This document shows, in pieces, positions 1,447-61,059 of a stretch of 64,000 nucleotides of DNA; the first letter of the stretch is position 1; each line of letters opens with the position of its first letter. The position numbers and the translations under genes were made by a program. The notes under the pieces were generated by a model. It worked only from the letters and a program-made list of their open reading frames with translations. It ran no database searches and was not told the origin of the DNA. The stretch is from Straminergon stramineum (Eukaryota > Streptophyta > Bryopsida > Hypnales > Calliergonaceae), in the NCBI GenBank assembly GCA_963920665.1, contig OY987268.1, forward strand, positions 21,826,501-21,890,500. Direction: 5' to 3'.

Positions 1447-2035
1447 TTAACCCCTGAAGTCCCAAGGCCATTTTTCTACCAAAAAACATTCAAAATTGCT
1501 ACTTCTATTGCATTCATCTAAAGAATTAGAAAAAAAAATTACTTTTTTTAGAATCTAACCGTAGAATCTTGTACCAAAATTTTCTTGGATCATGTAGTAA
1601 AAATCTCATGATGTTTGACCATACGGATTGAAAGATATTAGCATTCAAAGTGAAAGAAAAAGTGTTTTTTTTGAAGATGCTCCAATTGCCCACAAAACAA
1701 GAAACTCTATGTCTTTTACATCACTAATCCAAATGGAATGAATCAAAGCTTCCCATTTAGAAAAAAATATAATCTACAAGAATAAAATAATTTTAAAATA
1801 TATTTCAATTTTTTACAAATTTTTTTTGTTGCTTGCTCTCCCCCATTTTGAGGTTATTGTGGCATAACTTTTGCTCCTGAGCACCAATTGGAATAAAAAT
1901 TATATTCCCCCAAAGCTAATAAGTTTTTCTATCTTATGATAAAGTTTCAAAAAAATTCACTAAAAATTGAGCTCATAGGAACCTACCCGAAATCCATTTT
2001 GTCCTGTGTATGGACATTCAGACTTTAGGTATTAA
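1447..2035. mobile_element. TTAA-flanked non-autonomous element (family A), 589 bp
   Basis: Bounded by TTAA at 1447-1450 and 2032-2035. The left end reads CCCCTGAAGTCCCAAGGCC. The right end, inverted, reads TACCTAAAGTCTGAATGTCC, so the two ends are imperfect terminal inverted repeats. The interior, with the recurring pattern of a 'gatattagcattcaaagtg' block, resembles inverted sequence near 49350-49541 and sequence at 50600-51353. There is no coding capacity. The end structure fits a piggyBac-type MITE. Confidence 0.6.
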
Positions 2036-2253
2036 ATGACTATAGAGGTTGATTTAAGGACCATCTTATGTCCATTTCAAAGCTAAAGTAGGGATGATTC
2101 TAAATGCTCGCATGGAGTTTGAGCCTCCTATCTTACATGAAGGTATTGTGTGAAGGTCCAAAATTGAATTTCTACGTCAAATTCTAGGGGGTCTATGTCA
2201 CCTCATACCATTCACAAGATGACATGTGGTAATTTTTTTTTTACAAAATTGAT

Positions 2254-3185
2254 TTAACCCCTAAATGTTATCAACCATGTTTTCACCAGAAACGCTCCAA
2301 AATTGTCATTTCTAGTACAAATACCAAATTTTAGGAAAAAATATTTCTGGACACATGTCACCATAAGATCTTGTACTACATTGATATGAGAAGATATGGG
2401 AAAAATTTCAGAAATTTCCACCATGTAGATTGTAAGATATTAGTGTTTGAATTGGCAAAAATCCTTTTTTGAGCCTTGTGAAAAAACAGGTAGTTGCACT
2501 TCAAAAGGCCACATCTATATGAAAAAAATTCCAAAATGGTGGTTACTCTTTGGATTCATTCTTCAAGTCAAGTTGGTTTCATGCTTGATAAAATTCAGAT
2601 CATTAGAAATTGTACAACATAAAGGAAAATAAATAAATAAATACGATGAACTAGAGAATGATTCAAAATACAAAATTGTGAAGAATTTTGTTATAGAATT
2701 GAAAAATGCCAATCCCAATGGTTGTAATGCTATAATAAACAATCTACATCCCATGATTTAATTTAATTTTTAAATATTGAAAATTGAGTTAAATAAAAGA
2801 CTTCAAAGTTTATTTTAGAGTAGAGAATCTAAAATTGCTTGTATACTAAAACTCCTCATAACTTTCATCTCAAGAATCAAAATGGAATGATTCAAACCTT
2901 TCCACGTACATATAAATCTATAAAACCTCTTTCAAATTTTTATTTCTTAAAAAAGTGTTTTTTCAAGAAATTTTAGGGTTGCACGAAGATTAATGAAAAT
3001 TACATATCATGCAATAACTTTTTAACCATGTAGTCAAAAGTTATGAAAATTGTTGGGCCTTAAAGCTACTCCTTAGGCACATGTTGTGTGAAGTTTTCAA
3101 AGGAGAAAAAAAACCCTCCATTTATAGTGAGTTGCCCATGATGGCTATGTTGCCAAAAAATGCAATTTGGACATTTAGGGGTTAA
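2254..3185. mobile_element. TTAA-flanked non-autonomous element (family B), 932 bp
   Basis: Flanked by TTAA at 2254-2257 and 3182-3185. The left end starts CCCCTAAATGTTATCAACC. The right end, inverted, starts CCCCTAAATGTCCAAATTGC, so the first ten bases match exactly. Diverged copies lie at about 45262-46212, 48249-49181 (933 bp) and, inverted and interrupted, 52336-54050. Short open frames inside are not conserved among the copies and are not called as genes. Confidence 0.75.
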
Positions 3186-3488
3186 TGTATGTTGAATTTG
3201 ACCTTCATGTAGGATACCCAAACTTGAAATTTGAAAAGATTGATCGTATTTTGATGCTAGCATTACATGGGTTCACTCCAATTGATACCTTAAGTTAGGA
3301 TGTTTTTTTTTTTCTTTTGTTATAGTAAGATCTCCATAACCATGTATCCCTAGTTGCATTCTTAGTATTGTTGGAGAACCCTTTGCAATGAGGGGTGTAT
3401 AAACTTTGTTTTGTGGCATTTCAAAAAAATATATTGAATTTCAAAAAAGTTAAAAATTAAAAAATTAAAAAAATATTTTTACTTTTAC

Positions 3489-4969: not shown

Positions 4970-5209
4970 ATCCGTAATTATCAATTACACGGATTTCACT
5001 TGTCAAAGGGGGATTATGGGAAATCATCATCACACCTTTTGAATGGGATATTTCTTGGCACCCGTGTATGTATGAAAAGAGGAGGTCTTAATTAATACGT
5101 AGTTTGACCTCCAATGAGTGCTCTTGGTTATTTTATTAAATAAATTATTATTCACACTATACCAAAAAGGATGATTTCCATGGTGATTAGCACATCCTTA
5201 AGGGGTTAA
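4970..5209 (-). mobile_element. TTAA-element fragment (family D)
   Basis: The right end is clear: TTAA at 5206-5209 preceded by ...CATCCTTAAGGGG. Read on the minus strand, the end is CCCCTTAAGGATGTGC followed by a segment like those of the copies at 5206-5435 and 60829-61059 (the 'atcaccatggaaatcatcc' region). The opposite end could not be fixed, so 4970 is approximate. Confidence 0.45.
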
Positions 5210-5435
5210 CCCAGTAAGGAAGCTACGGACCAAAGTGGTCTGATGGATGATAGAGAACTCTTGTATGTGAGACAAAAGTGCCATTGTTCATCCTTGGAAT
5301 TTTGTGCAAAAAGGGGGAGGTCTTGCACACGAGTATGACCTCCAATGATGACTTTTTGGTTTTTTAAAGTAGATGATTCACACTGTTTCAAAAAAGAAGA
5401 TTTCCACTGTGACCAACCCATCTTTATAGGGTTAA
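5206..5435 (-). mobile_element. TTAA-flanked non-autonomous element (family D), 230 bp
   Basis: Bounded by TTAA at 5206-5209 and 5432-5435. Ends are CCCAGTAAGGAAG and, inverted, CCCTATAAAGATGGG. Read on the minus strand it aligns with the 231-bp copy at 60829-61059 and the degraded copy at about 46246-46471. All share a 'ggttggtcaccatggaaatc' block near one end. It abuts the preceding copy head to tail, with one TTAA between them. Confidence 0.65.
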
Positions 5436-8400: not shown

Positions 8401-8860
8401 ACATGTATAGTAGCCAAGTTCCCATCTTCTAATTATCCCATATCTTTTGTCTAACCATGGACAAACAATAGATATGGTTCTCTCTAGGTTCTCTTTGCCA
8501 TAGAAATTACAACGAAATGATTGATTGATATCTACCTTCTAATAACTTTCGCAACTCCAAACATTTAGAGTCCTATACTTGGTATCCTTATTCATCCATT
8601 TTATGTGTGCAAGGAATCTTTTCATCTATTGTCACAAGTTGTTTTCAATATAAATATGACCACTCCACCCTTCATTTTCACTAAATGTCCATGAAGTAAT
8701 TACTTCACTTTGCCATCAAAAATTCTCTTGATAGTAGATGGTGAATTCTTGTTGAATTTGGCATTCAATTTTTCTTGTTCCTTTTTTCTAACTTTCTTTT
8801 AAATAATGATTTTGTGCCATCCTTACTAGGCTATGGGCATGGGATGCACCAATAGATGAT
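5436..8860. other. AT-rich intergenic DNA, no gene seen
   Basis: About 3.4 kb with no convincing open frame. Small frames at 6407-6715, 6862-7047, 7517-7699 and 8188-8382 are low-complexity and lack family motifs. A TA-rich microsatellite lies near 6535-6565. Confidence 0.6.
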
Positions 8861-16184: not shown

Positions 16185-19100
16185 CTGGTGATTTAGCTGC
16201 AGCTATTCAGCTTTCTATTAACGAAAACCGGCAACAAATCGTCGTCAATATTCCCCCTGGCCCTATTCCTGCTGCGGTGGTGAGAATCGATGGCTCACGG
16301 GTTCAGGATGCTAGAGTGGCCCCTGCAGCTGACATGCCCAGTATCAAGTCCATACATGAGCTCAAGGATCGTCTAAGTATCGGTTCACTCTTCAAAATGA
16401 AGCGTGACTGGCTGGCGAGGTTGGTACCATGATCATACTCTTCAATTAATTTGTCTATCCGCAGCTTCAGCTAGGTTAGGAATATCCAGATTGACTGAAA
16501 GGTCCGGCCTTTTATATAATTCTGAACTTAGAGTGACGTGGAACGTGGCCTTTCACACCTGGATTAATTGACCTATGAATGAGCAGTGAGCCTCAACATT
16601 TGGAACAGTTTAACTGCAGCAGTTATGATCCGATCGTCTCTAGCCTTGTATCTAGAGTGTAGTGTCCTCTTTAATGACTAATATAATTCAAAATAATCCA
16701 GGTTTTTGCTCACGAGGTGACTCATATCAGGTTAATTAGCGTTTATTACTCTCTTAAGTCAGGTACTAACATACATTTCTATGCGGTGTTCTTGCATTCA
16801 GTATATATTGTGTGAGGAGTCAATTTGCTAATAAGCTGTTTCTACGTTATCAGAGAGCTTTCGAAAGGAAAGAATGGTGCAAAGGGTGAGCCCTCTCCTG
16901 CCAGACATGAGCGGAGGCTTTTGCAAATTGTTGTGCGTAGAGACCAAGTTTTCCAAGATTCATACCTGCAGGTACTCATCATCTTGCTAATCTCTTTTTA
17001 GACCAGCAGAGCAGTTCTGTGGAGATTGCAAGCTCATGCTTCAGCTACGATAACATCGTTACCTACAGTCTTGGTCTGATCTGATATAAGAGTCATCTGT
17101 GATACTCTGTGCAGTTCGCATCTCTCAGTGATGACGACTTGCGGAACCCCTTGTCCGTTCACTTTGTTGGGGAGGTAGGGCGGGACGATGGGGGTGTCAC
17201 CCGAGATTGGTACAGTGTGCTCGCAAAGGAGATATTTAATCCGCAGTATGCCCTATTTACTCATAGTGCGGTGGATGATTATACATTCCAGATCAACCCT
17301 AATTCAGGAGTCAATCCTGACCATCTGGACTTCTTTCGGTACATCGGCACAATTGTCGGCAAGGCTCTATATGATGGCTGTCTTTTTGATGCGCATTTTA
17401 CGAGACTCGTTTACAAACGGATTTTGGATAAACCAGTCACTTATCATGATATGGCTTCTGTCGACGTTCAGTTTTACAAAAGCCTTTGCTGGGTATGTAC
17501 CCATCTCATACAAAATTCATTTATGCGCCTAAGTTCTATTGATTTTCATAAGGTTAGGGGATGGATGGCCACTTCGATGGTTAGGGTAGGGAGTGATGAA
17601 CTTGATTACGCAGCATCCAGGTGTTATTCATGAAGTATGTGCGGACAATTTGTGCGATGTGAACTTTGGATGAAAATTTTGATACGCTAAGTGTGGAATC
17701 TCGACCATGCTTGTTGATGGAATTATTTCATGGATATCCTTAGTTGTCTTTTCTGAAAGTTCGAGGGGCATGCGTTTGTGAACTGCAGCTCCTTGAGAAC
17801 AAATTGGACGGGATGGACTTGGGCTTAACCTTCTCGGTGGACACCGATAACTTTGGCGCGTATGAAGAGATTGAAGTATGTGAAATCGTCTCTTTTGATT
17901 CTGACAGTTGTATTGAATAGCACTATCTCATTTTTTGCTGGTTAGATAGGATTTCAATCCGACTTGAGCAACTCGTTATTATAGTATAAGTGTTCTCTGA
18001 AGGCGCTTCCGAGTTTAATCTGGAAGAGAACGTGTATGACATGCTGTGCAATTGACACCTACTGGATCTCTAAGGTGTGCATTGTTTGCTGTTGATTGCA
18101 GCTTAAGAAGGGTGGAAAAGAAACAGTTGTAACGGAGCAAAACAAGCGGGAGTATGTTGACCTGTTGGCAAGCTGGCGCTTAAGAGGTCTTTCACCTTGA
18201 GGATTCTATCTTATGAATGTGACTTGCTACTTGAGTACCAACTGCTAGCATTACTGCCGTATTTTGTTTTTGTCGTTTTTCGCATGCAAGTGAAGGTGTA
18301 GCTCAGGATTGTCGATCCTAGTTTGTTCAGCGTCCAGAGGAACCCTGAGCAACTCGAGTATCTTAGCCATTGAAATACTTTGCTCAATCATATTTAAAAT
18401 AAGCTGGAGTTTCAAAACATTTTTAAATCCTTTGATCCTAGTCTGGTTTCCCTTATCGAAGGAATATGAAATTTCAAAGCAGCAACCTTATGATCATTCA
18501 TGGGATTCAGATCACATGCTGGAAATGAGATTCTGTTGCTGCAAGATCACATATTCTGTTTTTCTCGATTTGTGATACAGAGAGCGTAGAACAGCAGTTT
18601 CAGGCATTGCGGACAGGTTTATCGCGAGTGGTGGACCCAGTTCTTCTACAGGTGTGTATAAGCTGTAGTTGTCGTGTTTTAATTGGCTGGATAATATAAA
18701 TCAGCTCCGAGCATGTGGTTTAGAGGATGATCATTGTAGTTCCATCTTGGCTTTTTGTCGGACTGTAGTACTTTTTGAGTTATCGGAATCTAAATTCTCT
18801 ACTTGTTCCCAGCACTTTGATGAGGCGGAGCTCGAGTGGCTTATTGGAGGGCTGCCGACTATTGATGCTGGTGATTGGTGAGTCTATTCCCGGAATTTGA
18901 GATATTTTGAATAACGATTTACAATTAACCCTTAAAGGATAAATCTTGTCCGGGCTTGGTCAACCGTCATTAGATTTCTACACTAGAACACATATTTCAA
19001 AAAATTGATATTTTTCACCTGCAGTAATATATGTCTGAAATCTAATCTCATTTTTTCATAATTAAAAACATCAAATTGAAATAGTACGAAATTTTTATGA

Positions 19101-20590
19101 AAAATGGAAATAATAGTGACAAACATCACGGTGTATTTGATGTACTCCTTGAGCTCACATTAAGAGAAATTAGATAGAAAAAGTTTTAAAAGTGGTGTAT
19201 TATGAGCTTTCAAGATGCTATATTCAAAGTGTTCCAAAATTACAGTTTTAACAATTTTGAAGAAAATTAAAATGGAGCGAAAAGTACATTATTTGAGCTA
19301 TATTTTCTTAGTTAAGCTTAGAAACATTGACTTTCAAAATGTCCGTGGAGCTTGCAATGTCCTTTTAAGGGTTAATACTTCATATTGAAATTAGTGGCAT
19401 TCCTGTGCTCAGAGCATATTGTGAGGGCAGTGAGGTCTGGTTATCATAACCGATAATTGCAAAATCCAGCTCACTGCTCATTTTTTTCAACTCATTTATT
19501 GATGAAAAGAGAGTGGCTCTACAGGAGGAAAAATACAGTATACAAGGCGGGATTCAGCGACTCTCCGGACTGTCATGTAATTAGGTGGTTCTGGCAGGTA
19601 ATGATATATTCGTGTCTACTTTTCAAATGCATTTGCATATTGGTGTTTTTTCGCAGCTGACATGGATGTGTAAGATCACTAAACCTTGTTCGAACAATTT
19701 AAAATCCATATTCTTAGTAGCTGCCATCAGTCATCAGATTTGTGAGGGAACTTTCTGATGTTAATTTACTCTTCATTGTACAGTTGGTCGAATCTTGGGA
19801 TCAGGAAATGCGGGCCAGGCTGCTGCAGTTTGTAACTGGCACATCAAAGGTGAAATTTTAGAATTCTCCAATCGTATAAGATTTTTTTTCAATCACATCT
19901 TCACTGTTTCTCTGTTTCAGATTTTGTATGTTGAATAGCTTTAAGCAGAGGTAGCTAATTTTTTCTTTGGGGGATACGTATGAGCAGGTGCCATATCCAG
20001 AAGGCTTCAAGGTACCACCTTTTCACCTTGAATTTTTCATTATGTGAATTGCAGATTTTTTTTTTGTGTTGGCCAGTATGCAGGAACTGTAAACTATGAT
20101 ATATATGACGTGTATCTCATTTGCAATCGTTTATGGCCACAGGGCTTGCGAGGTAGTGAAGGTTTAAGAATGTTCCATATCGTTCGCGTGTCAGATTCGA
20201 CAAGGTTACCCCAGGTAAATATTTTCTTCCGACGCAATTTGTATGGCTATGTGCCTTCAGTTAGTGATATTACAAGTCATATCAATTTGCTTCTAATCTT
20301 TTGAAGTAAATCACTTGATCCAGTAGAGTAGAAGTGAGTATACCGTCTCCTGTAACGAACCTCGCTTCTCTCTTTCTCCTGTTAGTGCTTCATCTTGTGT
20401 GGTTGAAGTAGGGAAGTAAATGTCATTACCGAGATTAGTGTTTGACTGCGAATGGCCATGTTTGTGATTTTTACAGGCGCACACATGCTTCAACGAACTG
20501 ATACTTCCCGACTATGATTCATATGAAGAATTGAACAAAAATCTTATTACTGCCATCTTTGAGACAGGAAACCAGTTCCAGCTTCGATAA
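16185..20590 (+). CDS. HECT-type E3 ubiquitin-protein ligase with UIM, HUWE1/UPL1-like (5' end unresolved)
   Basis: HECT ligases take ubiquitin from an E2 onto a catalytic cysteine and pass it to the substrate. Twelve exons join in frame with GT-AG introns: 16185-16419, 16854-16971, 17115-17492, 17789-17875, 18102-18186, 18581-18651, 18813-18877, 19525-19597, 19784-19849, 19988-20011, 20143-20214 and 20477-20590 (about 461 residues). The first exon encodes a ubiquitin-interacting motif (DLAAAIQLSINE). HECT hallmarks follow: GEVGRDDGGVTRDWY, DDYTFQINPNSGVNPDHLDF, GKALYDG, HFTRLVYKRIL, LIGGLPTIDAGDW, LLQFVTGTSKVP and the active-site HTCFNELILPDY (Cys in the last exon). A Phe sits four residues from the C-terminus, as is usual. 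It resembles HUWE1 and plant UPL1/UPL2 more than NEDD4-type enzymes. No large armadillo-type N-terminal region is visible upstream. One intron carries a TTAA element. Confidence 0.9.
18925..19375. mobile_element. TTAA-flanked element inside a HECT-gene intron, 451 bp
   Basis: TTAA at 18925-18928 and 19372-19375. Left end CCCTTAAAGGATAAATC; right end inverted CCCTTAAAAGGACATTGC. It lies wholly within the 647-bp intron 18878-19524, the longest confirmed intron of the gene, and leaves both splice sites untouched. No coding capacity. Confidence 0.7.
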
Positions 20591-21530: not shown

Positions 21531-23740
21531 GAAATGGGGAAAAAAGAACCCAATGAAATATGAAACTAAAATATAGAAAACAAAGTAGAAGCAATAATTG
21601 GAGGAGGTATACAAATAGTTGGTTGAATAAGGAGAATGAATGATATAACTCATGGCAAGTCATCGCGAAAAATATCCTTTTTGGTATGATGTGCAAAACC
21701 TCCCCTCCTACACAAATTTTCAAGGATGAACATCTATACTTTTGTTTTATATAGAAAGATTCTTTATCATCCATTGGACACTTCTAGGCTACCACGTTAT
21801 TACAAGGCTAAGATTCTACAAATGTTTTTAAATCCTTTTATAGAGAATGCAAACACTACTTGGTTACCAAAGGAACAATTACAATAATATAGTGAGATTG
21901 TTGATGAACTTAGATTTAGAACTACAAAGACCATTTATGCTTATCGGAATTATGCATCCATTGGGACAAATTTAACATGATCTAGATAATTAACCTAAAA
22001 ACTAGAGAACTTTATACAATTCTAATAAAAAAAATACTCGCACAATATTGAATCTTGAATCTTTCTCATATTTGCATACGAAAATACAAGATTATTCAAG
22101 ATCCCAAATATAATTTCAAATTCTCTAAATTTGATCATCCATATTAAATAACCATTTGCCAAAATGGGCAATAAGCGCATCAGTTCTCACACATCTATCC
22201 ACACTCCTCCAAGGTTTTTGGATTGACATGTTACTTAGGCCAAACTAAGCTCCCCCTATTTGACTCTGTCACACACACACAAAATAGAATCTCATCCAAC
22301 CATGATGCAAACATTCATCCAAACCACCCAAACATGTGCCTTGAAACATGCATGAAACCCCACTCAAACGCCTTTAAGGTAAAACACCCCATTACGGACT
22401 TTTTACCCATTGTGGACTCCTAAGAATGACTCCATTATGGTTTTCTTTTAGTTATTGAGATTTGGGACACATTCAATGTCTTAGCTAATTGGAATGGAAT
22501 AAGGTAGACTAGCCTATTACCACCTTGATTCACAATTTGAGTATATTAGGACCAACTCCAAGAGCGGTACACATTTTTCAAAGGAGTGTGCATGTTTCAC
22601 AAATCAAACCCAAGTAGAATTATAATTTTTTGATTAAAATTGTAATTTCTATAAATTTCTACAATGGTCTGCCCTGAAATTACAAAACCATCACTAGACA
22701 GAGTCATAAATGTCCTATCCTAAGCCTATAACTGCCATTCCAAGTCCCTATTAGCACTTGAATATCCACCAATCAAGGATTGACACGTAACCCAAGTTGG
22801 AATTAATACATTGAAATTGTCAAAAAAATAAATGGATTTGGGTGAGTTTTATGGTGGAGATGGGGCCCAAATTAGGATGGCGGTTATAGGAAGCTAGTGG
22901 AAATGGGTTGGTCTACCTTAATTAGTGACCACAATAGGAACTTTCAGTTTTTTAGTGTTAGTTCATTGTAGGAAGTGCCTTTTTCAGGTCTTCTATGTTA
23001 GAAAATATTGTGACTGCAATAGGTGAGTAAGATTAGTGTTATGGATCAATTTTGGTTGGTTTTGGGATAAGGTAGTCTACTCTTAAAGTGACTGTTTAAG
23101 GGCTGGTTGGCCTTTTTGATGGTTCTTAGATGCACGAAATTATTTTTCCTTATTTTTCACTTGAAGAAAAATTGATGTGGAATCTAATCTAAGTGGTTTC
23201 ATATTTTTCGGAGCATTTTTGAATTACTTATGAATTTTCAAAGAATTCTGTGGTAGGCACCTATTTTTTTTTTATCATAGGCCTTGCAAAACTCACACAC
23301 AAGCAGTCTGAAAAAAGAGATGGCTTGACCAAAAACAAGCATTGCAACATTCAAAAAGTTATACTCAATTTTCTTAAATGCAACCATTACTAAACTTAAA
23401 TGGACCCTAAACATTTGTAAGAAGGCAATTGGGCAATCAATTTTCATTGAGAAAAATTAAGTGGACACACCCTGGCTTTGAAATAGACCCTCTCTAACTC
23501 TTATTCCATCCATTGGCAAAGTATGAAGCAATAATTGACAAATCTTAATTATACTCTAACATTTGTGGCGGTCACAATAAGAACAGACTACCTTAGTCTA
23601 CAGACTCTTTTAGGCTGTGATGGGCTGAACACTTCAAAAATTCATAACAAATTCACACTTTGTCAAGAAAACATAGTTTCAAATGCTATCGCCATTTCTA
23701 TCACTAGACTTTCTCTGGAAAAAAAAGTAAAAAATTTCAG
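21531..23740. other. AT-rich intergenic DNA with dispersed repeats
   Basis: No gene seen. The 22495-22680 segment is related to 13370-13560. The 23150-23275 segment (TTCATATTTTT core) is related to about 1225-1345 and to the inverted copy at about 49640-49780. Confidence 0.5.
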
Positions 23741-26096: not shown

Positions 26097-26099
26097 ATT

Positions 26100-26283
26100 C
26101 ACTAGAAGAAATTTGTGTTCATTGATCTAATGTGTTTTTGTTAAATAACACAAAACTGTGTTGGAAATAACAAAGATTTGTAGGATTGTGACTAAAATAA
26201 TGCTAAACTACGTTATTTCCAACACAGTTTTGTATTATTTCACAAAAACACATTAGATCAATGAATTCAAATTTCTTCTAGTG
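26100..26283. mobile_element. CACTA-type foldback MITE, 184 bp
   Basis: Starts CACTAGAAGAAATTTG and ends in its exact inverse CAAATTTCTTCTAGTG. The near-perfect inverted repeat continues inward for about 70 bp on each side. It is flanked on both sides by ATT (26097-26099 and 26284-26286), a 3-bp target duplication. CACTA termini with a 3-bp duplication are the signature of the CACTA (En/Spm) superfamily. Non-coding. Confidence 0.75.
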
Positions 26284-26286
26284 ATT

Positions 26287-27248: not shown

Positions 27249-27319
27249 TGCACCGGCCGGGAATCGAACCCGGGTCTGTACCGTGGCAGGGTACTATTCT
27301 ACCACTAGACCACCGGTGC
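27249..27319 (-). tRNA. trnG-GCC: tRNA-Gly (GCC)
   Basis: The minus strand gives a 71-nt cloverleaf. The acceptor stem GCACCGG pairs with CCGGTGC, with discriminator A. The D-arm region (TCTAGTGGTAGAA), the anticodon loop with GCC (CTGCCAC) and the T-loop GGTTCGATTCC are all canonical, and the last also serves as the pol III B box. It is nearly identical to the usual plant nuclear tRNA-Gly(GCC), with a compensated G-C pair in the acceptor stem. T-rich sequence follows as a pol III stop. Codons read: GGC and GGU. No intron; CCA is not encoded, as normal. Confidence 0.97.
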
Positions 27320-27737
27320 CCAGGAATCTGAGAGATGTCAGACTCTTTCATGTCTCTCCGACAATATCTTTGAACCCATAACATAATCTTCCAGAGTAGA
27401 ATAGCTGTTCCTAAATGAAATCATTTTACAAAAATTGTAATGTGTACACTTTCAGTGTACTTTTAGAAGCACTAAAACTCAGATGTCAGTCAGCCAAGCA
27501 TCTTTCAAAGCAACGACCATAACGATCATCACCAAGGCAACAACATACTTGGAATGGGCCAAATGGAGAGCCCACACTTTCTGTTGGACAGCTAAAGCAT
27601 GTTGGGAATCTCGTAGATCCCACCGTTGAAGTCCACAGTGGCCAAGTAAACCAATCTTGCAAATCGATTGGCAGCTTGTCCAGTTGTAGAAAGTGGGGTT
27701 CAAGGTGCCCATATTCATGCACAGTTGGGTGAGAAAG
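27320..27737 (-). other. 3' flank of the CDIN1 gene
   Basis: Lies between the CDIN1 stop codon and the tRNA gene. Probably the 3' untranslated region of CDIN1 (minus strand). The frame reading through 27479-27784 on the minus strand is an intron/exon/UTR read-through, not a separate gene. Confidence 0.5.
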
Positions 27738-34264: not shown

Positions 34265-34919
34265 TCAACCCCTCAATGCCCAAAGCCTTATTTTGGCTTC
34301 TTGAAATTTGCTCTAAATTGAACAAAATGCCAACATTTTGATAAGTTTTATCAATTATATGTGAATTGTAAGCGTACAAATTCAAACTAGATATATTAGA
34401 AATCATAAGGGAAAAGAAAACACAACAATGACACATATAGATTGAAAGATTATAATGTTTGATCATGAAGGTGTCAAAATTGTGAAAGTGATTTGAAGTC
34501 TTTCAATCCTATTTTCCAATATCAAATCTAAAAAATTGGTCACAAAAAAAATATGAGATTAAAGGACATAACAAATATAACCCCAATCAATTTATAACTT
34601 CTCAAAATCTATTCTATAATTTTTTTAAATGAATTTTTAATGTAATTTTTTCTCCAAGATCTAGTGTATTTGAGGCTCATTTCTAAGAGTCCTCAACACC
34701 AAAAAATCAAGATTTGCAATGGACACCCTTGCACAAAATCTTGAATAGGAAAATCCTAATCATTCATTTTCAAAATCAAATTTTTGATGCTAAACTAGGC
34801 ATAAAGAGAATTTTTCAAAAGTATAAACTATTAAAAATAGAAACTTGGTCAAGTTTTATTTAACTTCAAAGTATTGTCTTCCACACCAAAATTTGGTGCC
34901 TCTAGCATTTAGGGGTTAA
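34265..34919. mobile_element. TTAA-type non-autonomous element (family C), 655 bp
   Basis: Right boundary TTAA at 34916-34919 after GCATTTAGGGG. The left boundary is TCAA (34265-34268, a one-base change from TTAA) followed by CCCCTCAATGCCCAAAGCC. The interior aligns along its length with the copy at 44559-45219, including 'aacaaaatgccaacattttg' and the end 'gtgcctc.gcatttagggg'. Confidence 0.7.
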
Positions 34920-40435: not shown

Positions 40436-43136
40436 TTGTAGTAACATAATGAGGGAATTTGTAGTACTATTCATTGAAAATGTATACAAACAACTTTCAA
40501 AAATAATTTGGATGAAAAAATAGTTCTTCTCCATTCTACAATCTCAAGTGAAGTCATCCATTGGACACTTAGTGTCCAAGGCATCCTTCTAGGGATAATT
40601 CATATTTTGAAACCTCTCATTTGAGACAAAACTATGACCATGTAAGCTTAATTGAAGTTCAAAATGTGCTAAGGTAGAATGTCCTTAAATCATTCAGGCT
40701 CTAAAAGCTTCCTCCAATGCAAAGGTGCATTTGGCTTTTCTCATTGCATTAGCAACATGCAATACAAATAGTATACATTTCAAGAGGTGGATCATACTTT
40801 TAGTGACCACAAAAATTCAATTACAAAAGTTCATAATGAAGTCCATGAAGTTTTCCTAAAAACATGAAATGACTTGGGTTAGATGTCAATTCCATTTTGA
40901 TTTTAAGTAAAATTCAATGAAAAATAATCCAAGAAGTCTAACCACCCAAAATGAATTTTTAATCCTTAAATAGGCACTTCATGAACTTCACACCTTATGT
41001 GGTTCCTATTTCAAAATGATTATTTATTTTTATATTTCTTAGAAATGATATCATAAGTCTTAGATTTTTTGAGAAAAATTGAAATTATCTTGAGTTTTGG
41101 AAGGAAAAGTGAAAAATATTTATATTAAATATAATATATGTATAATCCTTTAAAGACCAAGGGTGGTCGAAATTCCTACAATTGTGGACAATGTAATATA
41201 AGAATAATTTAAATGATAAATTTTGAATGTAAAATTTTTTAGTTGTAATATGTAATATACAGATCATGTTTGTATAGTTGGATCTACCACACCACTTATC
41301 CAATAATTATAAATAAAAAATATAACCAAAATTTAGAAATTCTTTATAAATTTCATTGTTGATTGAATAAAAGTAATTTTCAAAAGAATTTCTTTCCTTT
41401 AGGTTCAAGTGTAGGTTCTAATTTTGGTGATTTTTCAAAAAAATTGTTTTAGGTGACAACCAATATATTGTACTTCAACTTGTTGGAAGACCATTTTGGT
41501 AGAAGAATCATGTGAAAGCTTACGTAGAGTTATTAGAACAATGGAAAGAATAGTGGAAAAAGATCATAACATTGTTGAACCCAAAGTTGAAGTTGTCCCC
41601 TATGCAATGCTAGTACATAAAGAGTGTTCTTGTCAAAGTGCCGCCATAATTTAGGAAGTTTGCTTTTCATTCAAGAGTTTTGTTAAAGGCAGCATATAAG
41701 TATTTGGAAATGATTGTTGGACAATTTCTTGAAAAGAAAAGAAAAATTGTACTTGCATTACATAAAAGTTACAATCATGAAGTGGAGAAGCCCAATAAGC
41801 AATATTGGTGTCACAACATTTTTAGTACACAAAAAATAATATTGTTTTTTGTAAGGACTCCATCAACTACAAACTATGGGGCAATTTTTTAGTTTAGCCC
41901 CCCCTTCTAATGAAGATGAGATAAAGTTCAAATCAAAGAAACCTAACTACTTGTACATTACAAGCAATAGATCAATGCAAAGACTAGTAATGTACTAATA
42001 ATTAGATCTTCTTTACTAGTCTTTGCATTAATTAAAATACCGTCTAATCTCAATGTGCAAAAACTAGTAAGGGAGAGGGTATTCAAATTGTTTGAAACCT
42101 ATCTTTTTGTCAATTAAATCTCCTAACTCTTTAATACATTAAGTTAGAGAAAATACAAACCTTGTGGATGAAAAAACAATGTGGTATAGGATTTTTAAAT
42201 TTGACTATTCCTAAAATATGTTTAGAAATCCATTTTCAAAAATGGATGTATTTTTGAACCCTAAACCATTGACTATTGTATTTTTTATATTTAATATTAC
42301 CTTTGTAACTTAGCCTTTGAATATTGGTAAAAGAAACCATCGTATTTGTACCCTCAATAATCAAGAAAAGGATGGCATTTTCAAATACTAAGTCAATGTA
42401 TATAAGTTTGGATGAATAAATGATGCTTTATCTGTGATCTACATATATTCATTAAGTAGTTTGAATATGAGACATGTTTCCTCTAGACAATGGTAGTGTT
42501 GCAAATGTGCATGATATTCCAAATTGTCAATGAAGAGAGGTTTAGATTAAACAAGTCCAAGACAATGTAGAACCTAAACAAATCACTATAAAGATTTATG
42601 GAATAGAATTTCAACTCTTGATCTTTCTTCTTCTATGTAGTTCCGACCTATTGCCACCAAAGATTGTATTTGAAGAAAAGTTATAGATATTCAAGAAATG
42701 GCCCCCTTCTCCAAAGTGTCTTCTAACATTCTTTAACTTCAAGGCAAAGGATCAGCTTTGTTTTCCATGAATCAAGACTCCTTTCACTAGAAAATCTTTG
42801 CATGGAAACTTGCGAATAAATTGTGTGCCATTGTAACATGAATTTTTTTTGTTACACTATTGATGTAGAAGGACTCCTTCCCTATTCAAGAATTTTATAT
42901 TAGGAGATGTGGAAACTCAAGAACGGTACACCTTCTCTAGAAAATTGGGAAAAGATATAATTTTTTAAATTCATAATATAAAGAAAGAAGGAAAGAGGAA
43001 AGAAAAGAAAAGAAAAAGAATCACACTGTTTCTAAGAAAAGAAAAAGAAAAAGAAAGAAAGTAGAGAAGGTTTAGATGGTCTAAAGTAGGAGCCCCCATG
43101 CGTACTATGTATCTATTTGTCTCACTTTTTGGCCAC
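40436..43136. other. AT-rich spacer; few repeats
   Basis: A diverged end of a TTAA-type element is visible near 41135-41155 (ATCCTTTAAAGACCAAGG). A perfect 17-bp inverted repeat pair lies at 41974-41990 and 42013-42029. A (GAAA)n purine tract lies at about 42977-43068. The frame at 41680-41892 (+) is unrecognised. No gene called. Confidence 0.45.
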
Positions 43137-43380
43137 TATTCCTTCCATCCCACTAAAAACCTTTGAACTAGACATAGTGCATGTACCACTAAACCATTCC
43201 ATTCATTGATTTTGATTATTGAGCAAGTGATGTGGAATCCAAATCGAATTCCGTTCAATCAATCAATTCCAAAAATTCCACATCACTTGCTCAATCTTAA
43301 AAATCAATAAATGGAGCGTTTTTAATGGTACATGCATTATTTATGATTCAAAGTTTTTTAGTGGGATAGAGGGAATTGTA
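43137..43380. mobile_element. Foldback MITE, about 240 bp
   Basis: Two arms of about 100 bp form a long imperfect hairpin. The outer ends are TTCCTTCCATCCCACTAAAA and, inverted, TTCCCTCTATCCCACTAAAA. The inner arms share 'attgagcaagtgatgtggaa'. The outer sequence resembles the CTCCCTC..TCCCA ends of Stowaway (Tc1/mariner) MITEs. The left copy has TA before it; the right flank is less clear. Confidence 0.65.
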
Positions 43381-44558: not shown

Positions 44559-45219
44559 TTAACCCCTAAATGCCCAAGGCCTGTTTTGAGTTTTTCGGTA
44601 TTTGCTCTCAATTGAAGAAAATGTCAACATTTTGATAAGTTGTATTAGTTTTTTAGAATTTGTAACCATACAAATTCAAATTAGACATGTTAGAGATCAC
44701 ATAGGAAAAGAAAACACAACCATATTACTTATGGAGTGAAAGATTATAAGATGTTTTGACCATGAGGGTGTTAAAACTGCAAAAGTGATGTGAAGCCTTT
44801 CAATCCTCTTTTCACAAGTCAAATCTATGAAGTTGGTGTTTAAAAAAAAACATGAGATTAAGGGGCCTAACATGCATAACCCCAATCAATTTATGGCTTC
44901 TCAAAAATCTACTCTATAATTTTTTTAAATGAATTTTGAATGTGATTATTTCTCCAAGATCTAGTGTATTTGAGGCTCCTTTTCAAGAGCCCTCAACACT
45001 ATGGAAAGTCAAGATTGCAATGGATACCTTTGCACAAAATCTTAAATAGAAAAATCAATATCATTCATTTTCAAAATCGGATTTTTGATGCTAAAACTAG
45101 ACTTCAAAGAGAACTACCCAAAAATACAAACTACTAAAAATAGCATATTGGTTAGGTTTTATTTAACTCCAAAATTTTGCAAACACCAGATTTTAGTGCC
45201 TCGGGCATTTAGGGGTTAA
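44559..45219. mobile_element. TTAA-flanked non-autonomous element (family C), 661 bp
   Basis: TTAA at 44559-44562 and 45216-45219. Left end CCCCTAAATGCCCAAGGCC; right end inverted CCCCTAAATGCCCGAGGC, with only one difference in the first eighteen bases. Paralogue of 34265-34919. One of the best preserved copies here. Confidence 0.8.
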
Positions 45220-45261: not shown

Positions 45262-46212
45262 TTATCCCCTATAGGTTTTTGACTAAATTTTCACCAAAAA
45301 TGCTCCAAAAATGCCATTTCTGGTACAAGTACCAAATTTTAGAAGAAAAACATTTTTGGACACATGTATCCATAGCATCTTGTTGTATGCTCTTGGTTTG
45401 AGAAGATGTCAGAAAAAATTTAGAAATTTCTAATATTTTAGAGATTTGCAAGATATTAGCATTTAAAGTGGCTAAAATCCTTTTTGGGGCCTTGCGAAAA
45501 AAATGGGCAGTTGCACTTCACAAGGTCACATTTGTATGAAAAAATGTCCAAAATGGTGGTGCTTCTTTGAATTCATTGTTCAAGGCAAGTTGGATACATG
45601 CTTGAAAATTTTCAAATCATTTGGAATTGAACAACATATAGAAAAAAAAATAGTAAGTAGAAAGAAGTACAAAATGATTCAAAATATAGAATTGTTCATA
45701 TTTTAGTGATGGAATTGAAAAATGCCAATCCCAATGTTGTAGTGTTGTATTAAACGATCTACATCCTATGATTTTATTTTTTCCAAAACATATTGAAAAT
45801 TGTGTTAAATACAGGACTTCAAAGTTTATTTTAGAGTAGAGGATCCATAACCACCTGCAAACTAAAACTCCTCATAACTTTCATCTCACTAATCAAAATG
45901 GAATGATTCAAAGCTTTCCAAATACTTATAAATATTGAAAAGAAATTTCAAATTTTTGTTTATGAAAAGAAATTTTTTTTAAGAATTTTTTTGAGTTGCC
46001 CAGGCTACCCGATGAATAATAAAAATTTCATACAATACTAGAATTTTTTAACCATGAGATCAAAAGTTATGAAAATTGTTGCACCTTAAAGCTACTCTTC
46101 GGGCACAAGTTGTGTGAAAATTTCCAAGAAAAAAATTTAAAAAATTGTTTGTAGTAAGCTACCCCAAATTGTTATGTTACCAAAAAAATGTCATTTGGTC
46201 TTTAGGGGGGAA
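45262..46212. mobile_element. TTAA-type element (family B), decayed ends
   Basis: The interior aligns with 2254-3185 and 48249-49181 from 'caccaaaaatgctccaaaaatg' to 'ccaaaaaaatgtcatttggtc'. The left boundary is TTAT followed by CCCCTATAGG. The right end is TTTAGGGG but the TTAA has decayed to AAAT-type sequence. It lies a few tens of bases from the preceding family C copy. Confidence 0.6.
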
Positions 46213-46245: not shown

Positions 46246-46471
46246 TGAACCCCAGAAGGATGGGTTGGTCACCATGGAAGTCAGCCTTTTTTGTATAGTG
46301 TGGATCATGTGCTTAAAAACACCTAAGAGCACTCATTGGATGTCAAACTATTTTGCAAGACTTTTCCTTTTCACACAAAATTCCAATGATGAATATGTGC
46401 ACTTATGTCCTACATAAAAGGATTATCTACCATCCATCATACACTTATTTACGACGTCCTTTCAAAGTTAA
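46246..46471. mobile_element. TTAA-type element (family D), about 226 bp, decayed
   Basis: The right boundary TTAA at 46468-46471 follows GACGTCCTTTCAAAG. The left boundary has decayed to TGAA-CCCCAGAAGG. The 'gggttggtcaccatggaag' block and the 'cattggatgtcaaacta' segment match 60829-61059 and 5206-5435. Confidence 0.5.
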
Positions 46472-47278: not shown

Positions 47279-47531
47279 TTAACCCCTCAAGGCCCAAGCA
47301 GCTTCTGTACTTTTCCACAAGTTTGAACTTTGATTGGCAGTATGCATTGTACATCAAGCTTATTACACGATGTCAATTGTACTTTTGAACTTCCCTATTC
47401 AACATGAACATCAGAATATGAAATTCACTTAGATATATACTTTTTGAGAATGTAGGAAAATCAAGTTACAACTTTGACCTGTTGAACACGTCAGAGGCTT
47501 AAAACAAGCTCCTTGGGCCTTGAGGGGTTAA
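47279..47531. mobile_element. TTAA-flanked MITE with near-perfect ends, 253 bp
   Basis: TTAA at 47279-47282 and 47528-47531. The left end CCCCTCAAGGCCCAAG is matched exactly by the inverted right end for 16 bp; then one mismatch, then AGCTT on both sides. No open frame. The high similarity of the ends makes this the youngest-looking TTAA-type copy in the window. Confidence 0.85.
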
Positions 47532-48070
47532 CTTAACTTAACTTAAGTTTGCCAGCTACAGACAACGGAATTGGGACGGGGAGTTGGGGACCGGGACTCC
47601 CACTGGACCCCGGGTTGTTTGTAACTTACTATATGAACTGGGATGAGACTAGGTTGGCATGTGCCCATCAGTGCCCATATAACTTATTGTGAACCCTCCT
47701 GTTGCCCAAATGCTCCAGGCAGGGCCTGCAAAGGTGGCCCATTAATTTTCCAGACTTACTACTTGCTTTTCCATTTCCATTTATGAGTGATGCATGGACA
47801 GTTGAGGAGTCAGCACAAGCAAGCAACATCTTGCAACTGAAGAACAATTTTCAATACCTTACCCTACCTTATTGAAAGAAAGATTGGCGAGGGTGCATGG
47901 AAGTAAGTTAAAATGCAGGAGAGCATGTTCATTGGGGAGGGGGATTCCCACGCATCACACATCGGCCACGGAGGATGGACCCCCTGGCTGTTGCCCTATC
48001 CAAGGGCTAATGTAAGAAAAAAAAAATTGCCCCTAGTTTGTGCCTTGTCAATTTTTAAAAAATCTCTTCA
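47532..48070. other. Spacer, no gene seen
   Basis: A (TTAAC)n run directly after the element at 47528 ('ttaacttaacttaact'). A short frame at 47913-48110 (+) is unrecognised. Confidence 0.4.
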
Positions 48071-48076
48071 CTTAAT

Positions 48077-48190
48077 GGAGGTATTAAGGGGACCCATACT
48101 AATTAATTGACATTTTACACTATATAAATATCTACTTTTTATTGTACATTAGTAGTTATTGAAGTGTCCGGGGATGTACATTATAGTAGT
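48077..48190. mobile_element. MITE 'P' left part, the empty-site copy
   Basis: The sequence from GGTATTAAGGGGACCC through 'tgtacattagtagttattg' to 'gtccggggatgtacatta' is the same as at 53245-53920. There, however, a TTAA-type element interrupts it. Here the corresponding site is a single TTAA ('ccatactaaTTAAttgaca'). Sequence matching the right part of the same MITE appears at about 49863-49935. Confidence 0.65.
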
Positions 48191-48248: not shown

Positions 48249-49181
48249 TTAACCCCTAAAGTTCCTTGTCTACATTATCAACAAAAACCCTCTAAAACTG
48301 TCATTTCTAATACAAGTAGATCTTGTAGTACACTAGATTGAGAAGATGTGGAAAAAAATTCAGAAAATTACACCGTGTAGATTGCAAGATATTAGCATTT
48401 GAAGTGACAAAAATCCTTTTTTGGGCCCTGTGAAAAAATGGGCAATTGCACTTGACAAGGTCACATTTGTATGAAAAAATGGGCAACTGCACTTGACAAG
48501 GTCACATTTGTATGAAAAAATGTCCAAAGTGGTGGTGCTTCGTTAGATTCATTCTTCAATGCAAGTTGGCTACATGCTTGAAAATTTTCAAATCATATGG
48601 AATTGTGCAACATATAGGAAAAAATTAGTAAGTAGAAAAATGTAGAGAATGATTCAAAATACTAAATTGTTAACAATTTATAAATAGAATTGAAAAATCC
48701 CAATCCCAATGGTTGTAATATTTTAATAAACAATCTACATCTAATGTTTTTATTTTTTTCAAAAAATATTGAAAATTGAGTTTCAATAAAGGACTTCAAA
48801 GTTTATTTTAGAGTAGAGAATCCATACTTGCCTGCAAACTAAAAGATCTCATAACTTTTGACTCATTGATCAAAATAGAATGATTCAAATCTTTCTATGT
48901 GTATATAAATCTAGAAAACCAAATTCAAATTTTTATTTTTGAAAAAAATGATTTTTTCAGATCTGCCCAGACTGCCCAAGTTGAGAAACAAACTACATAT
49001 TAGGCCATAACTTTTGACTCATATTTCCAAATGCCCTGAAATTTAGTGCACATGAAAGATATTCCTCGTCCACATCTTCTCTATTAAAGTTTGGGCCAAA
49101 AACATGGAAATCTATAGTCACAAGTACCTGCCCAAAAAAGTTATGTTGCCAAAAAACACACCTTCGTCCTTTAGGGGTTAA
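48249..49181. mobile_element. TTAA-flanked non-autonomous element (family B), 933 bp
   Basis: TTAA at 48249-48252 and 49178-49181. Left end CCCCTAAAGTTCCTTGTC; right end inverted CCCCTAAAGGACGAAGG. It aligns with 2254-3185. Inside, a segment of about 50 bp ('gggcaattgcacttgacaag' and following) is tandemly duplicated at about 48440-48520, which is absent from the other copies. Confidence 0.75.
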
Positions 49182-51987: not shown

Positions 51988-53236
51988 CTAAAAGGTCCTT
52001 GATGGGCTTTCTATGCTATGATAGCTTCTATCAATGCAAAGCTCTCCTCATCATATTTGTCAAAAATTAAAAATGTCAAGGTAGAGACTCCTGAATGCAC
52101 CACCAACCTAAAAGCACCATCTTCTATAGATGTACATCGAGTTGATCAATATCTACCTCCATTGAAGAAAGGATTATGGAACACTATCTACCAAGAAAAA
52201 AAACTTTGACCCTTTATAATTTTTACATGGAATAGCCAAATGAAACATTTATTTTTAGTAAATTGTAATCGTCTTCAAGTTGCCAACAAGAAAATGTAAT
52301 GAATTTGATGAGTCTAATGATAATAGTACCTATAATTAACTCCTAAAGTACTAAACTATTTTTTTGGCAACATAGCGATTTTGGGTAGCTCACTATGAAC
52401 AAAAAATAATCTTTGAAATTTTCACACAACGTAGGGCCGAGGAGTAACTTTAAAGCCCGACAATTTTAACAACTTTTAACTACATGGTTAAAAAGTTATT
52501 GTATGATGTGTGATTTTCATTGCTTAGCAGGCAACCCGTGTAGTTCAATTTTTTTTCTTAAATTACTTTCTTGAGAAACAAATATTGAAATTGGTTTTCT
52601 AGATTTATATATACATGGAAAACCTCAAATCATTCTATTTGATTAGTGAGATGAAAGTTATGAGGAGCTTTAGTTTGCAATTAGTTATGGATTCTCTATT
52701 CTAAAATAAACTTAAAATAAACTAAAATTATGAAGTCCTTTATTTCGTTCAATTTTTCATATTTTTGGAAAAAAAATAAAATCATAGGAGGTAGATTGTT
52801 TATTACAACATTACAACCAATGAGATTGGCAGTTTTTTAAACCATGACAAAATTATGAACAATTTAGTATTTTAAATCATTCTTTATATCTTTCTACTAA
52901 CTAATTATTTCTTGTATGTTTTACAATTCCAAATGATTTGAAAATTTTCATGCACGTATCCAACTTGCCTTGAATAATGAATTCAAAGAAGCATCACCAT
53001 TTTGGACATTTTTCATACAAATGTGACCTTGTGAATTGCAATTGCCTAGTTTTTCATAAGGCCCCCAAAGGGATTTGAGTCAATTCAAATGCTAATATCT
53101 TGCAAATCTTTGAAATGGTAGAAATTTCTGAATTTTTTCTGACATCTTCTCAAACTAGGAGCATACAACAAGATGCTACGGTTACATGTGTCCAAAAATG
53201 TTTATTTTCTAAGATTTGGTCTTTGTACTACACTAA

Positions 53237-53985
53237 ATAGGGGTATTAAGGGGACCCATATCAATTAACCCTGGAACGTCCAGGCTCATCTCCAAAATTG
53301 ATGATTTGAGAAAAATCATTGTAAAGTGCTATTTAGAAGCATATTTTGGAATTGACATACAATCAAAAGTTGTAGACTGTGAGATGTAGATTTCATCTAT
53401 ATGGTTAAATTCACTAATGCTATCATCAATATTTTTTTATAAATTTTAAAAGGGAAATTTCAAAATTCCTTCTTAATTCAATTACAAGCAAAATATCATC
53501 ATTTTCTAAGTACAATTTGTTGGAATGGATTTGAAATGAGGTTCTCTACACATAGTGATTTTTTAAAAATTTTGTGATCTTCAAATCTATAACCTCATTT
53601 TGGCAAATGTATTTTTGAACTAAAGTCAATGCAATTTGACCACTTGACATACTTGCACATTTGTAATTTTAGAAAAATATGTACTCTAGTAACACCAAAT
53701 CCAACCCTTGGATAGGACAACAACTTGATAAAGTATCTCCAAAAACTAGGATGACCTTCATCCAAGCAGTGATGAGAAGATACAACAGTTTCAATTTGTT
53801 CGTCATCCACTTTTTGGACTTCGGAGCGCTTAGGGGTTAATCAACATTCCACATGATATAAATGTCTACCTTTATTGTACATTAGTAGTTATTGAAGTGT
53901 CCGGGGGATGTACATTATGTTTCAAACATCTACAATTTTCTACAATTAGTCCCTGTAATTTTTTGGTCCACATAATACCCCTATT
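53237..53985. mobile_element. MITE 'P' with terminal repeat AATAGGGGTATTA, filled copy
   Basis: Begins AATAGGGGTATTAAGGGGAC and ends, inverted, AATAGGGGTATTATGTGGAC. It is inserted in the family B element and carries the TTAA-type element 53265-53840. Removing that insert leaves a MITE of about 175 bp matching 48077-48190 plus 49863-49935. Confidence 0.65.
53265..53840. mobile_element. TTAA-type element nested in MITE 'P', 576 bp
   Basis: TTAA at 53265-53268 and 53837-53840. Ends are CCCTGGAACGTCCAGGC and, inverted, CCCCTAAGCGCTCCGAAG. The host sequence either side ('ccatatcaa' and 'tcaacattccacat') is continuous around a single TTAA in the related copy at 48.1 kb. This shows that the TTAA was duplicated on insertion. 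Confidence 0.8.
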
Positions 53986-54112
53986 CAATTTAGAAATGGT
54001 ATTTTGGAACGTTTTTGGTGAAAACATAGTCAAAAACCCTAAGGGGTTAATAGAAAAGGTGGCGCATTTGGGAGTCCCTACCTTAGATGCTACTCCATAT
54101 AACTAAGCGTGT

Positions 54113-54327
54113 TCCAAGATAAGGTAGCTTTACCCAATACCACCCAAATGTAGGGTCCTCATTGATTCTAGAGTGAGAATGTAAAACTATAATACATGTC
54201 TTATGCGAAGTTAATGTGAAGTTAAGGCATGTACTACTATTTATAAATTCTCGTCATAAAATCAATGAGGACCTTACATTTAGGTGGTATTGGGTCAAGG
54301 GCTGATAATAGGTTTGCCTACCTTACA
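54113..54327. mobile_element. Foldback MITE, about 170-215 bp
   Basis: Inverted arms: 'acccaataccacccaaatg' at 54132-54150 and its inverse at about 54272-54295, extending inward through 'gtcctcattgatt' and 'catg..tta' to a short loop near 54215. Outside the hairpin, matching 'aaggtag' words lie on both sides. Superfamily not assigned. Confidence 0.6.
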
Positions 54328-58302: not shown

Positions 58303-60828
58303 ACAAACACATGCATGATGCTAGAGAAAGAATGTGGAAAGATAAAAAAATCAGTTGTAAAGTTGGTTCAATTTCTAAAATTGGCAATTCAAAATGACAA
58401 TTGTAGGCAAATTACAAATATGGGCAATGAGCAATTTCGGATATCACTTTTTGGACACACTGATTAGGTGATTTTTGTTTAAAACCTTCAAAGGTTGTCT
58501 AATTTGTTCATTTTGATCAATTAAGAAGACCCTAAAATGAAAAAAAAATTCGTGCACCTCAATACGATCAAAATATATACACCTAATGAGTTTGTTTGTT
58601 TTTAGTTAAAGTTTTGGGTCTATTGATAGATGTCAAAAAAATGCTAAATTTAGGGATTTGCAAGCATCATATTGCATAGTTTATTAAATTCTAATTGATC
58701 AAATTAATTATTTAATGTATTGGTATTCTAAAAATAAGTCATATCCAAAAATGATATTAAAATAAAATCATTTGAAATTCAAAATGCTTGTTATTGAAGA
58801 TTTTAGGTACATAGGATGAAACTTACTTTTTGGACTAAAAAATTCATTAAAAAATCTTAAACTTCTTTGATTCTAATGAGTTTTTTTTTCTTGATACATT
58901 ATCAATGTAGGAAGTTGGAACCAAATTTTGTAAAATCATACTTTATTACATTTAAAAAATGAAGTTGTTTGATACAGTGGAATGGATTGACATTGTAATT
59001 TAGCCAACCTTTTTGGCTACCCATAGTTGACCATTGCCCAAATATATTTCAAAGAAATGGTTGTTTCAAGTTCAAATGTTAGGAATACCAATGAATAATT
59101 ATGTACTCTTAGAAAATCAAATATTGGCTAGTTTGGTTCCAATTTTTTTTCAAACAAAGAACAAGATGTTGGAGATTTGTGAACCAATCTACAAATAGAG
59201 ACAAAAAGACACATACAATATTTTGTATTTCCTTTAACTTCATGAAAGAGTCAAATATCTAAGAAAATATATCATCTCTAGGTCACGCTAAGGATAACTC
59301 CGTTGTTTTGAATCCAAACTCTTGGGTCCATGTAATATTTTGTAGACTTTTTCAACAATATTATGGACTTTTGAGCATGAGCTAAAGGAGCACAAGTGTG
59401 TGCATGATAACATACCACTCATAAGGATGACAAGTAAAGTGCACAAAATTTCACCTTATGTCTCCTTTGTTGCTACTTCAATATTACTATGAATTTGAGA
59501 TCATAGTCAATCCCTAAGAAGATTTCTAATAGAACATCTTGTTAAGGTATAACACAAGCATCTCCACTCCATTGCTCCAAAATGGACTAATTCCCTCCTC
59601 CATTAGAATGGAATTAGAACTTAAATAGCATAAAATAGACACAATTAAATTGTGTATAATTTTTCCAAACCAACAACAAATTTTGATATGGTCACCGTTC
59701 CAAATTACCTTGCAAAATGGAGGTATTTTAGGATCACTGCAATCATTTACTATCTAAATCTATAGTTTTTTGTGCCTTTTTTGTGTAAATTTTTAACAAA
59801 ATTGTATGGTTCAAATTAGAGTAAGACTATAAGAACAAGAGGATTCTCATTTCATTGTCTTGAACAGTTGGAATGGAGATGTTCTAACATTTGTTATATA
59901 AGTCCTAGTGTTAGACCATGATGGACTTGGAAGTAGTTCAAAATTTCAAAACTTTCAAGATGTGGAATCACTAATAGAAAGAGGAAGTCTCATGGCGCCA
60001 ACCATTGGTATAGTAGTTGATGTCCCGAGGTTCTATTTCTATTACTGGATAGAGTGCAACTTTGAGGGCTAATTTCGTGATGACTTTTAAATAATGACTC
60101 ATAGATTGTATCTAAATAGTCAAAATTTCAATTCACGAACTAATCATTTTAGATACAATTGGAAATCATGAGATGACTCACAACTAATCTAATTAGTCAT
60201 GTAAGGTAACTACACCTAATTTTGAACACTTTTTGAAACCGACCACTATAAATTCTTGCCTAAAATGTACTCCCACTACTCTTGAGAGTCTATTGTTGAT
60301 TTTAGAGACACCCATTTTCAACACTTTGGAAATTCATAGTTTAGTTCATACAATGTCCAAAAAATGCATTCTCACAAAATCTAAAATCCCCTTTTGACTA
60401 CCAACAAGACCCCACAAAAAGGTTTTCAATGAAATAATGAAAACCATGCCGAATTGTTTATTTGTGCAATTTTAGGTGTAGTTCTCTTAGTTCAGTTCCT
60501 TGGTCTACTCACTCACTCAGACTATTGTGTTTCCAATGATGCAATGATTGTCACCTTTTCATTGACATTCCAAGCCCTCTCTCCAATTCATCAACTCAAC
60601 TCCAGACAAAACCAATAACTTAACTGCATTGTCCTTCCATCAATGGAACGAACTTGTCAAACAATTATTTTTGTTCTTGATTTAGTTTCTCAACACCATG
60701 CTTTGCAGACTTTCTTTCGATTTATGTACCAACTTATATCTTATCTCAGAGCTGTATCACACACTCTAACTTAAAGTACTTTGTGGCTGTCCATGTTGAG
60801 CATTCATTTGTTGTGACAAAAACTTGAG
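58303..60828. other. AT-rich intergenic DNA, no gene seen
   Basis: About 2.5 kb. A frame at 58213-58467 (+) overlaps the possible minus-strand coding region and is not called. Nothing else is identified. Confidence 0.55.
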
Positions 60829-61059
60829 TTAACCCTTGAATGCCGGGCTGGTGACCGTGGAAATCAGCCATTTTGGAACCATGTGACATCATCTACTTCA
60901 AAAAAAATAAAAAATATTCATTGGGAGTCAAACTACTGTAAAAGATTTTCCTTTTCCACTCTTAAATCCGAGGATGAATAGTTGCACTTCTGTCCTACAG
61001 AGGAGATTTCCTTGTCATTCATCGGACAAAAGACGTCTGCCTCATCGTTTAAGGGTTAA
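60829..61059 (+). mobile_element. TTAA-flanked non-autonomous element (family D), 231 bp
   Basis: TTAA at 60829-60832 and 61056-61059. Left end CCCTTGAATGCCGGGC; right end inverted CCCTTAAACGATGAGGC. Same length and layout as 5206-5435 (there on the minus strand). No open frame. Confidence 0.7.

Follow-up and report, generated by a model that had tools for sequence, protein, structure and literature searches.

The window, the whole stretch of DNA that was analysed, spans 64,000 nucleotides (G000:C6:21826501-21890500) of a 326-Mb genome; families, boundaries and empty sites were worked out in the 264 kb around it. Exons of a gene for a CDAN1-interacting nuclease (TPD) lie on the minus strand at 27400-29000, a tRNA lies at 27249-27319, and an open frame at 17103-17633 encodes part of a HECT ubiquitin ligase domain (3.3e-22 in Pfam). 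Among the best 120 of 251 homologues of the nuclease, the best named matches (53-61%) are from ferns, conifers and Ginkgo (from the label), none of them close; in its tree the two nearest rows are nameless sequences, Diphasiastrum follows, and the deeper forks lack resolution. On this one gene the host is probably a land plant. Near-palindromic hairpin repeats, whose arms are 77-85% alike by self-alignment, occur at 26099-26284, 43135-43379 and 54128-54299 and are perhaps other MITEs. Further along, at 78.7-104 kb and at 160-163 kb (window coordinates), one set of long frames is found two or three times, with copies in either orientation, indicating a large GC-rich repeat that is duplicated or inverted. 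A Pfam scan of 92 of the 182 open frames of at least 62 codons returned only TPD, HECT, RT_RNaseH and a weak Mut7-C match, and tblastn with the genome's own transposases found no match inside the window. An earlier note on this DNA had stated that the window holds no transposase, and neither search found one there.

The window is rich in short elements flanked by TTAA and ending in CCC (strand is given where one was assigned). Family A is represented at 2254-3185 (932 bp, plus; TTAA-CCC ends), 48249-49181 (933 bp, plus), 45262-46212 (951 bp, plus; both TTAA decayed) and 52336-54050 (minus; interrupted by another repeat at about 53230-53990), with a 589-bp distant relative at 1447-2035 that has TTAA at both ends. 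Family B comprises 34265-34919 (655 bp, plus), whose left TTAA has mutated to TCAA, and 44559-45219 (661 bp, plus). Family C comprises 5206-5435 (230 bp, minus), a partial copy at 5075-5209 whose right TTAA is common to that element, a fragment at 21690-21783, a copy with an aligned extent of 46246-46446 (plus; outer end decayed) and 60829-61059 (231 bp, plus). A family F element lies at 47279-47531 (253 bp, plus), and a 451-bp element at 18925-19375, with TTAACCCTTAAA at both ends, is single copy within the 264 kb. The family D element at 53265-53840 (576 bp, plus) is nested in a different repeat, itself inside the family A copy 52336-54050. TTAA-CCC ends, self-alignment and same-family alignment define 5206-5435 and 44559-45219; TTAA-CCC ends and same-family alignment define 47279-47531; self-alignment identifies 21690-21783 and 46246-46446. 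The pairs listed in the earlier note were recovered, but its list had missed nesting and some copies (52336-54050, 34265-34919, 45262-46212). The repeat that interrupts this family A copy and contains the family D element is of another kind, with ends like AATAGGGGTATTA; it occupies 53230-53990, occurs again at 48066-48184 and has more copies in the 264 kb. The decayed copy at 45262-46212 is bordered on each side by the identical six bases ATGGGA, possibly by chance.

Nine of these coordinate pairs had been reported to have TTAA flanks and CCC ends. TTAA is indeed present at both ends of all nine, and TTAACCC at 17 of the 18 ends, the exception being the right end of 1447-2035, which reads TTAATACCTAAAG. 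With at most one mismatch and on both strands, TTAACCCYTNAA has 31 matches against a shuffle mean of 6.08 (sd 2.32, maximum 14, n=100), about five times the shuffled expectation. Among the 256 TTAANNNN words of the 264 kb, TTAACCCC tops the enrichment (57 observed, 5.9 expected). Genome-wide the decamer TTAACCCTAA, a plain word and not the consensus, is in slight excess over its reversed control (2840 against 2455). A chance origin of the TTAA-CCC ends was set aside, the motif being far above shuffles.

Thirty-four elements of the 264 kb were analysed, hand-picked from motif pairs and self-alignment with chance-looking pairs left out. Their families are A (~930-950 bp), B (645-661 bp), C (~230 bp), C2 (~231 bp), D (576-584 bp), E (571-585 bp) and F (~255 bp), besides elements that are single or only loosely related. 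Members of a family share on average 76-89% identity, and all seven consensuses carry TTAACCC at both ends in the same 12-base pattern. Termini of the form 5'-CCC are common to the seven consensuses and to the full-length coding elements T1-T3 described below; the rule for piggyBac termini is 5'-CCY. Animal piggyBacs have been reported with CCCTT and similar end motifs (PMC10813416). As expected of MITEs, the elements are short, non-coding and homogeneous in length, with terminal inverted repeats and high copy number. Matches to the family consensuses make up 9.4% of the sequence in the 264 kb; within the window their share is 11.8%. A first look across the genome gave 6950 candidates for family A and 4860 for family C, which are unscored word matches; 40 of each were scored.

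The alignments of same-family copies in the 264 kb begin and end at TTAA. An overrun of more than 12 bases past an end was flagged in 14 of 91 aligned element pairs. Read singly, 13 of these can be put down to an adjacent or nested element, to flanking DNA common to both copies or to a different repeat in the flank; the remaining pair, -34416 and 5206, overruns by 13 bases. When the element at 60829-61059 was searched with 200-bp flanks, all 39 non-self best genome matches ended within 14 bp of TTAA, starting at query positions 188-202 and stopping at 429-445; in this query the element, TTAA included, spans 201-431. For 48249, 38 of 39 scored non-self genome loci cover the query unbroken to within 2 bases and one covers it in two pieces; this query had no flanks and is thus uninformative on homology beyond the ends.

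Clear paralogous empty sites were found for 5 of 36 elements with flanks joined: three of the window (53265-53840, 2254-3185 and 1447-2035) and two from beyond it (-82015 and -24297, window coordinates). A single TTAA is intact in two of the four empty sites of 53265 and in both of those of 2254, and is decayed for the other three elements; at the empty-site match of 1447-2035, at 126729 (window coordinates), the target reads TTCAA. Empty sites, same-family alignments and the flanked search agree in showing duplication of a TTAA target. Homology running beyond the TTAA and CCC ends would have meant that these are not the true boundaries; where this was tested, the boundaries proved exact and homology stopped at TTAA. 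One alignment (1210-1651 with 49788-49350, 67%) does cross the boundary at 1447. Because an empty-site match exists for 1447-2035, this suggests that a larger repeat already containing the insertion was copied. Three abutting pairs occur among 38 intervals in the 264 kb, which hold 1703 TTAA; a rough estimate would expect one or two, so no preference for insertion beside existing elements is claimed. Family C pairs also abut at G000:C7:4360309-4360765, C3:21994595-21995051 and C1:8585287-8585743, overlapping by 5-6 bases as if one TTAA were common to both.

A genome search with PF13843 (piggyBac transposase) gave 118 matches at 116 scored loci, out of 472 candidates, with a best E of 7.8e-79; only 14 of the 118 are free of internal stops. 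None was found in 14 control genomes, a result of little weight since the identity of those genomes is not given. Seven loci, T1-T7, were excised for their open frames, not at random. T1 (contig C3, 6431 bp), T2 (C1, 6292 bp) and T3 (C1, 6323 bp) are bounded by TTAACCCCTAAAGGACC and TTAACCCCTAAAGTTCC and are 96.8-98.5% alike, with similarity ending within 5 bp of TTAA. Their frames of 906-948 codons (stop to stop) carry the piggyBac DDD triad, and the T1-T3 lineage appears to have been recently active. T4 is inserted at a TTAA within a family A MITE, T5 (4665 bp) belongs to a different lineage from T1-T3, the right TTAA of T7 is adjoined by a C2 MITE, and T6 showed no CCC ends within 8 kb. Upstream of the transposase lies a frame of 198 codons in T1-T3 and of 293, 293 and 303 codons in T4, T5 and T7. 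An accessory gene was considered for this position; 5' exons are likelier because the upstream frame of T5 resembles part of the T1-T3 transposase frame. Outside the window, 151348-151992 (window coordinates, L027) holds a decayed piggyBac transposase fragment, 32% to T5 (E 9e-20). Contamination by animal DNA was rejected, as the transposase matches are spread over contigs C1 to C11 and T4 is inside a family A MITE.

The protein encoded by T2 (P0121, 906 codons stop to stop) matches DDE_Tnp_1_7 (Pfam, 2.9e-78) and the structures of piggyBat (1.9e-24) and piggyBac (1.1e-20). By hand count on the printed alignment, D560, D649 and D766 face D268, D346 and D447; the catalytic DDD triad of piggyBac is named in PMC7351741. 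In a 22-row alignment D649 is invariant, and D560 and D766 are conserved in at least 90% of rows. At the second position of the triad T4 carries Asn instead. DDE_Tnp_1_7 with the three catalytic Asp, in an element with the ends described here, was found in T1-T3 and T5, which speaks for family A and more weakly for family E. The predicted model of P0121 (mean pLDDT 63) is mostly below 50 over residues 1-368 and mostly confident over the remainder, and among PDB structures it matches piggyBat and piggyBac best (target TM-scores 0.69-0.71), followed by Tn5. A C-terminal Cys pattern was seen by eye in the T2, T5 and T7 frames, and Pfam gave no match to such a zinc finger. Two protein searches returned 36 and 119 matches, mostly metagenome or read-assembly proteins. 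Among the names shown, none is that of a plant; they comprise two animals, an oomycete and a glutathione S-transferase record with a truncated organism name. In a tree of 41 rows chosen by the analyst, the seven own transposases fall within one clade of 27 (100/100), alongside environmental sequences, and form at least five lineages, with the two named animal rows apart from this clade.

The connection between coding elements and MITEs was sought by aligning the two ends of T2 (250 bases at the left, 400 at the right) to the 34 elements; 340 length-matched segments from other parts of the 264 kb served as controls. Both ends match six of the 34 elements, 2254-3185 among them; these six make up the whole of family A in the set, and none of the 340 controls matches at both ends. 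One end alone matches three further elements and five controls. The match with family A reaches the terminal base at the right end in five of six and at the left end in four of six. The window element closest to the autonomous ends is 48249-49181, 80% identical to T2 over 219 columns at the left and 80% over 71 at the right. Identity between T1-T3 and the family A ends is only 66-80%, so these elements are relatives of family A and not its direct parent. The left end of T5 aligns at 71-78% with the family E copies at -99748, 89996 and 143859; these alignments begin at TTAA, 4 bases past it and 15 bases past it. A subterminal stretch near the right end of T5 also matches family E; the T5 right terminus gave no alignment with it. 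These matches tie the T1-T3 lineage firmly to family A and the T5 lineage, more weakly, to family E. A piggyBac partner of families B, C, C2, D and F is suggested by the shared end motif.

The earlier note had read the elements as piggyBac-like and proposed a genome search for DDE_Tnp_1_7. That search yielded many PF13843 loci, and full-length TTAA-flanked elements sharing both family A ends encode a piggyBac transposase, which bears the reading out. Its further suggestion, that one transposase had mobilised many cores, is too simple: family A matches the T1-T3 lineage and family E is related to that of T5, among at least five lineages in the genome. We put at about 0.93 the probability that the window is populated by MITEs, non-autonomous members of the piggyBac superfamily, in seven or more families, that family A (~930 bp) is related by deletion to an autonomous piggyBac element of 6.3-6.4 kb in the same genome, and that family E is related to a second piggyBac lineage, of 4.7 kb.

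We propose that a piggyBac enzyme probably moved the matching MITEs. The transposase would bind the terminal repeats, cut the element out at TTAA by way of hairpin intermediates and insert it at new TTAA sites. MITEs that kept the ends and lost the gene would then be mobilised in trans. Movement in trans and the hairpin pathway are taken from the known mechanism of piggyBac.

Recent horizontal invasion of the plant by piggyBac, from an animal or other donor, would account for the near identity of T1-T3, the rarity of piggyBac in named plant records and the lack of a named plant match in the two protein searches. We regard it as improbable, because copies within the MITE families are only 76-89% alike and hence older, and because at least five transposase lineages share one clade with environmental sequences, apart from the animal rows. 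Somewhat less probable again is that another superfamily, or an element with a TA target in a TTAA context, accounts for some of the families B, C, C2, D and F, whose ends would then only be similar to those of the piggyBac-derived ones. No partner transposase was found for these families, and empty sites alone cannot separate a TTAA from a TA duplication, TTAA being palindromic around TA. However, all consensus ends read TTAACCC in a common 12-base pattern, and the outer T and A, needless for a TA target, are conserved. Kolobok-superfamily elements, which share the TTAA target and its duplication, are scarcely credible here, since Kolobok termini are 5'-RR and YY-3' (PMC9587614) whereas every family consensus is 5'-CCC, and the elements with both family A ends encode a piggyBac transposase, not that of Kolobok.

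The piggyBac reading has a bearing on plants in particular. Among known hosts, piggyBac is best known from animals. The earlier remark that few piggyBac-type elements are described in land plants is fair, but PiggyBac is one of seven angiosperm MITE superfamilies in a review (PMC10004981), a fern repeat table includes a PiggyBac row (PMC6890710) and one piggyBac copy is tabulated in PMC8319324. In the open-licence literature searched (for one query, 25 of 426 papers), no land-plant piggyBac element with coding capacity was seen described. PiggyBac MITEs in plants are thus already known, and the present case would stand out as unusually abundant and, as far as sequence similarity can indicate, recently active. 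It is somewhat probable, in our view, that a land plant, perhaps a moss, harbours a diverse, long-resident and recently active piggyBac radiation, whose trans-mobilised MITEs make up about a tenth of the region, in a group of organisms where coding piggyBac is hardly documented. One plant genome offers both halves of the system: elements that encode a transposase in open frames, and numerous MITEs with matching ends. With it one can ask by what route piggyBac arose and persisted in green plants, and how a burst of MITEs derives from a coding relative that can be identified. A native plant piggyBac would also be of practical interest; piggyBac serves widely as a genome tool, and its application in plants is described as limited relative to that in animals (PMC10794571).

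PiggyBac-type MITEs of insects and angiosperms (PMC10004981) are likewise short, non-coding, TTAA-flanked and of high copy number; in contrast to those, a coding relative with both ends was found here in the same genome. Trichoplusia ni piggyBac (PDB 6x67) and piggyBat (PDB 9c0f) share with the present elements DDE_Tnp_1_7, the DDD triad, the TTAA target and 5'-CCC ends, and the T2-type protein may have a C-terminal cysteine-rich stretch in common with both. T1-T3 differ from piggyBac and piggyBat in their longer frame of 906-948 codons with its long low-confidence N-terminal part, in an element length of 6.3-6.4 kb, in a host that is probably a land plant and in having ~20% identity to the animal structures.
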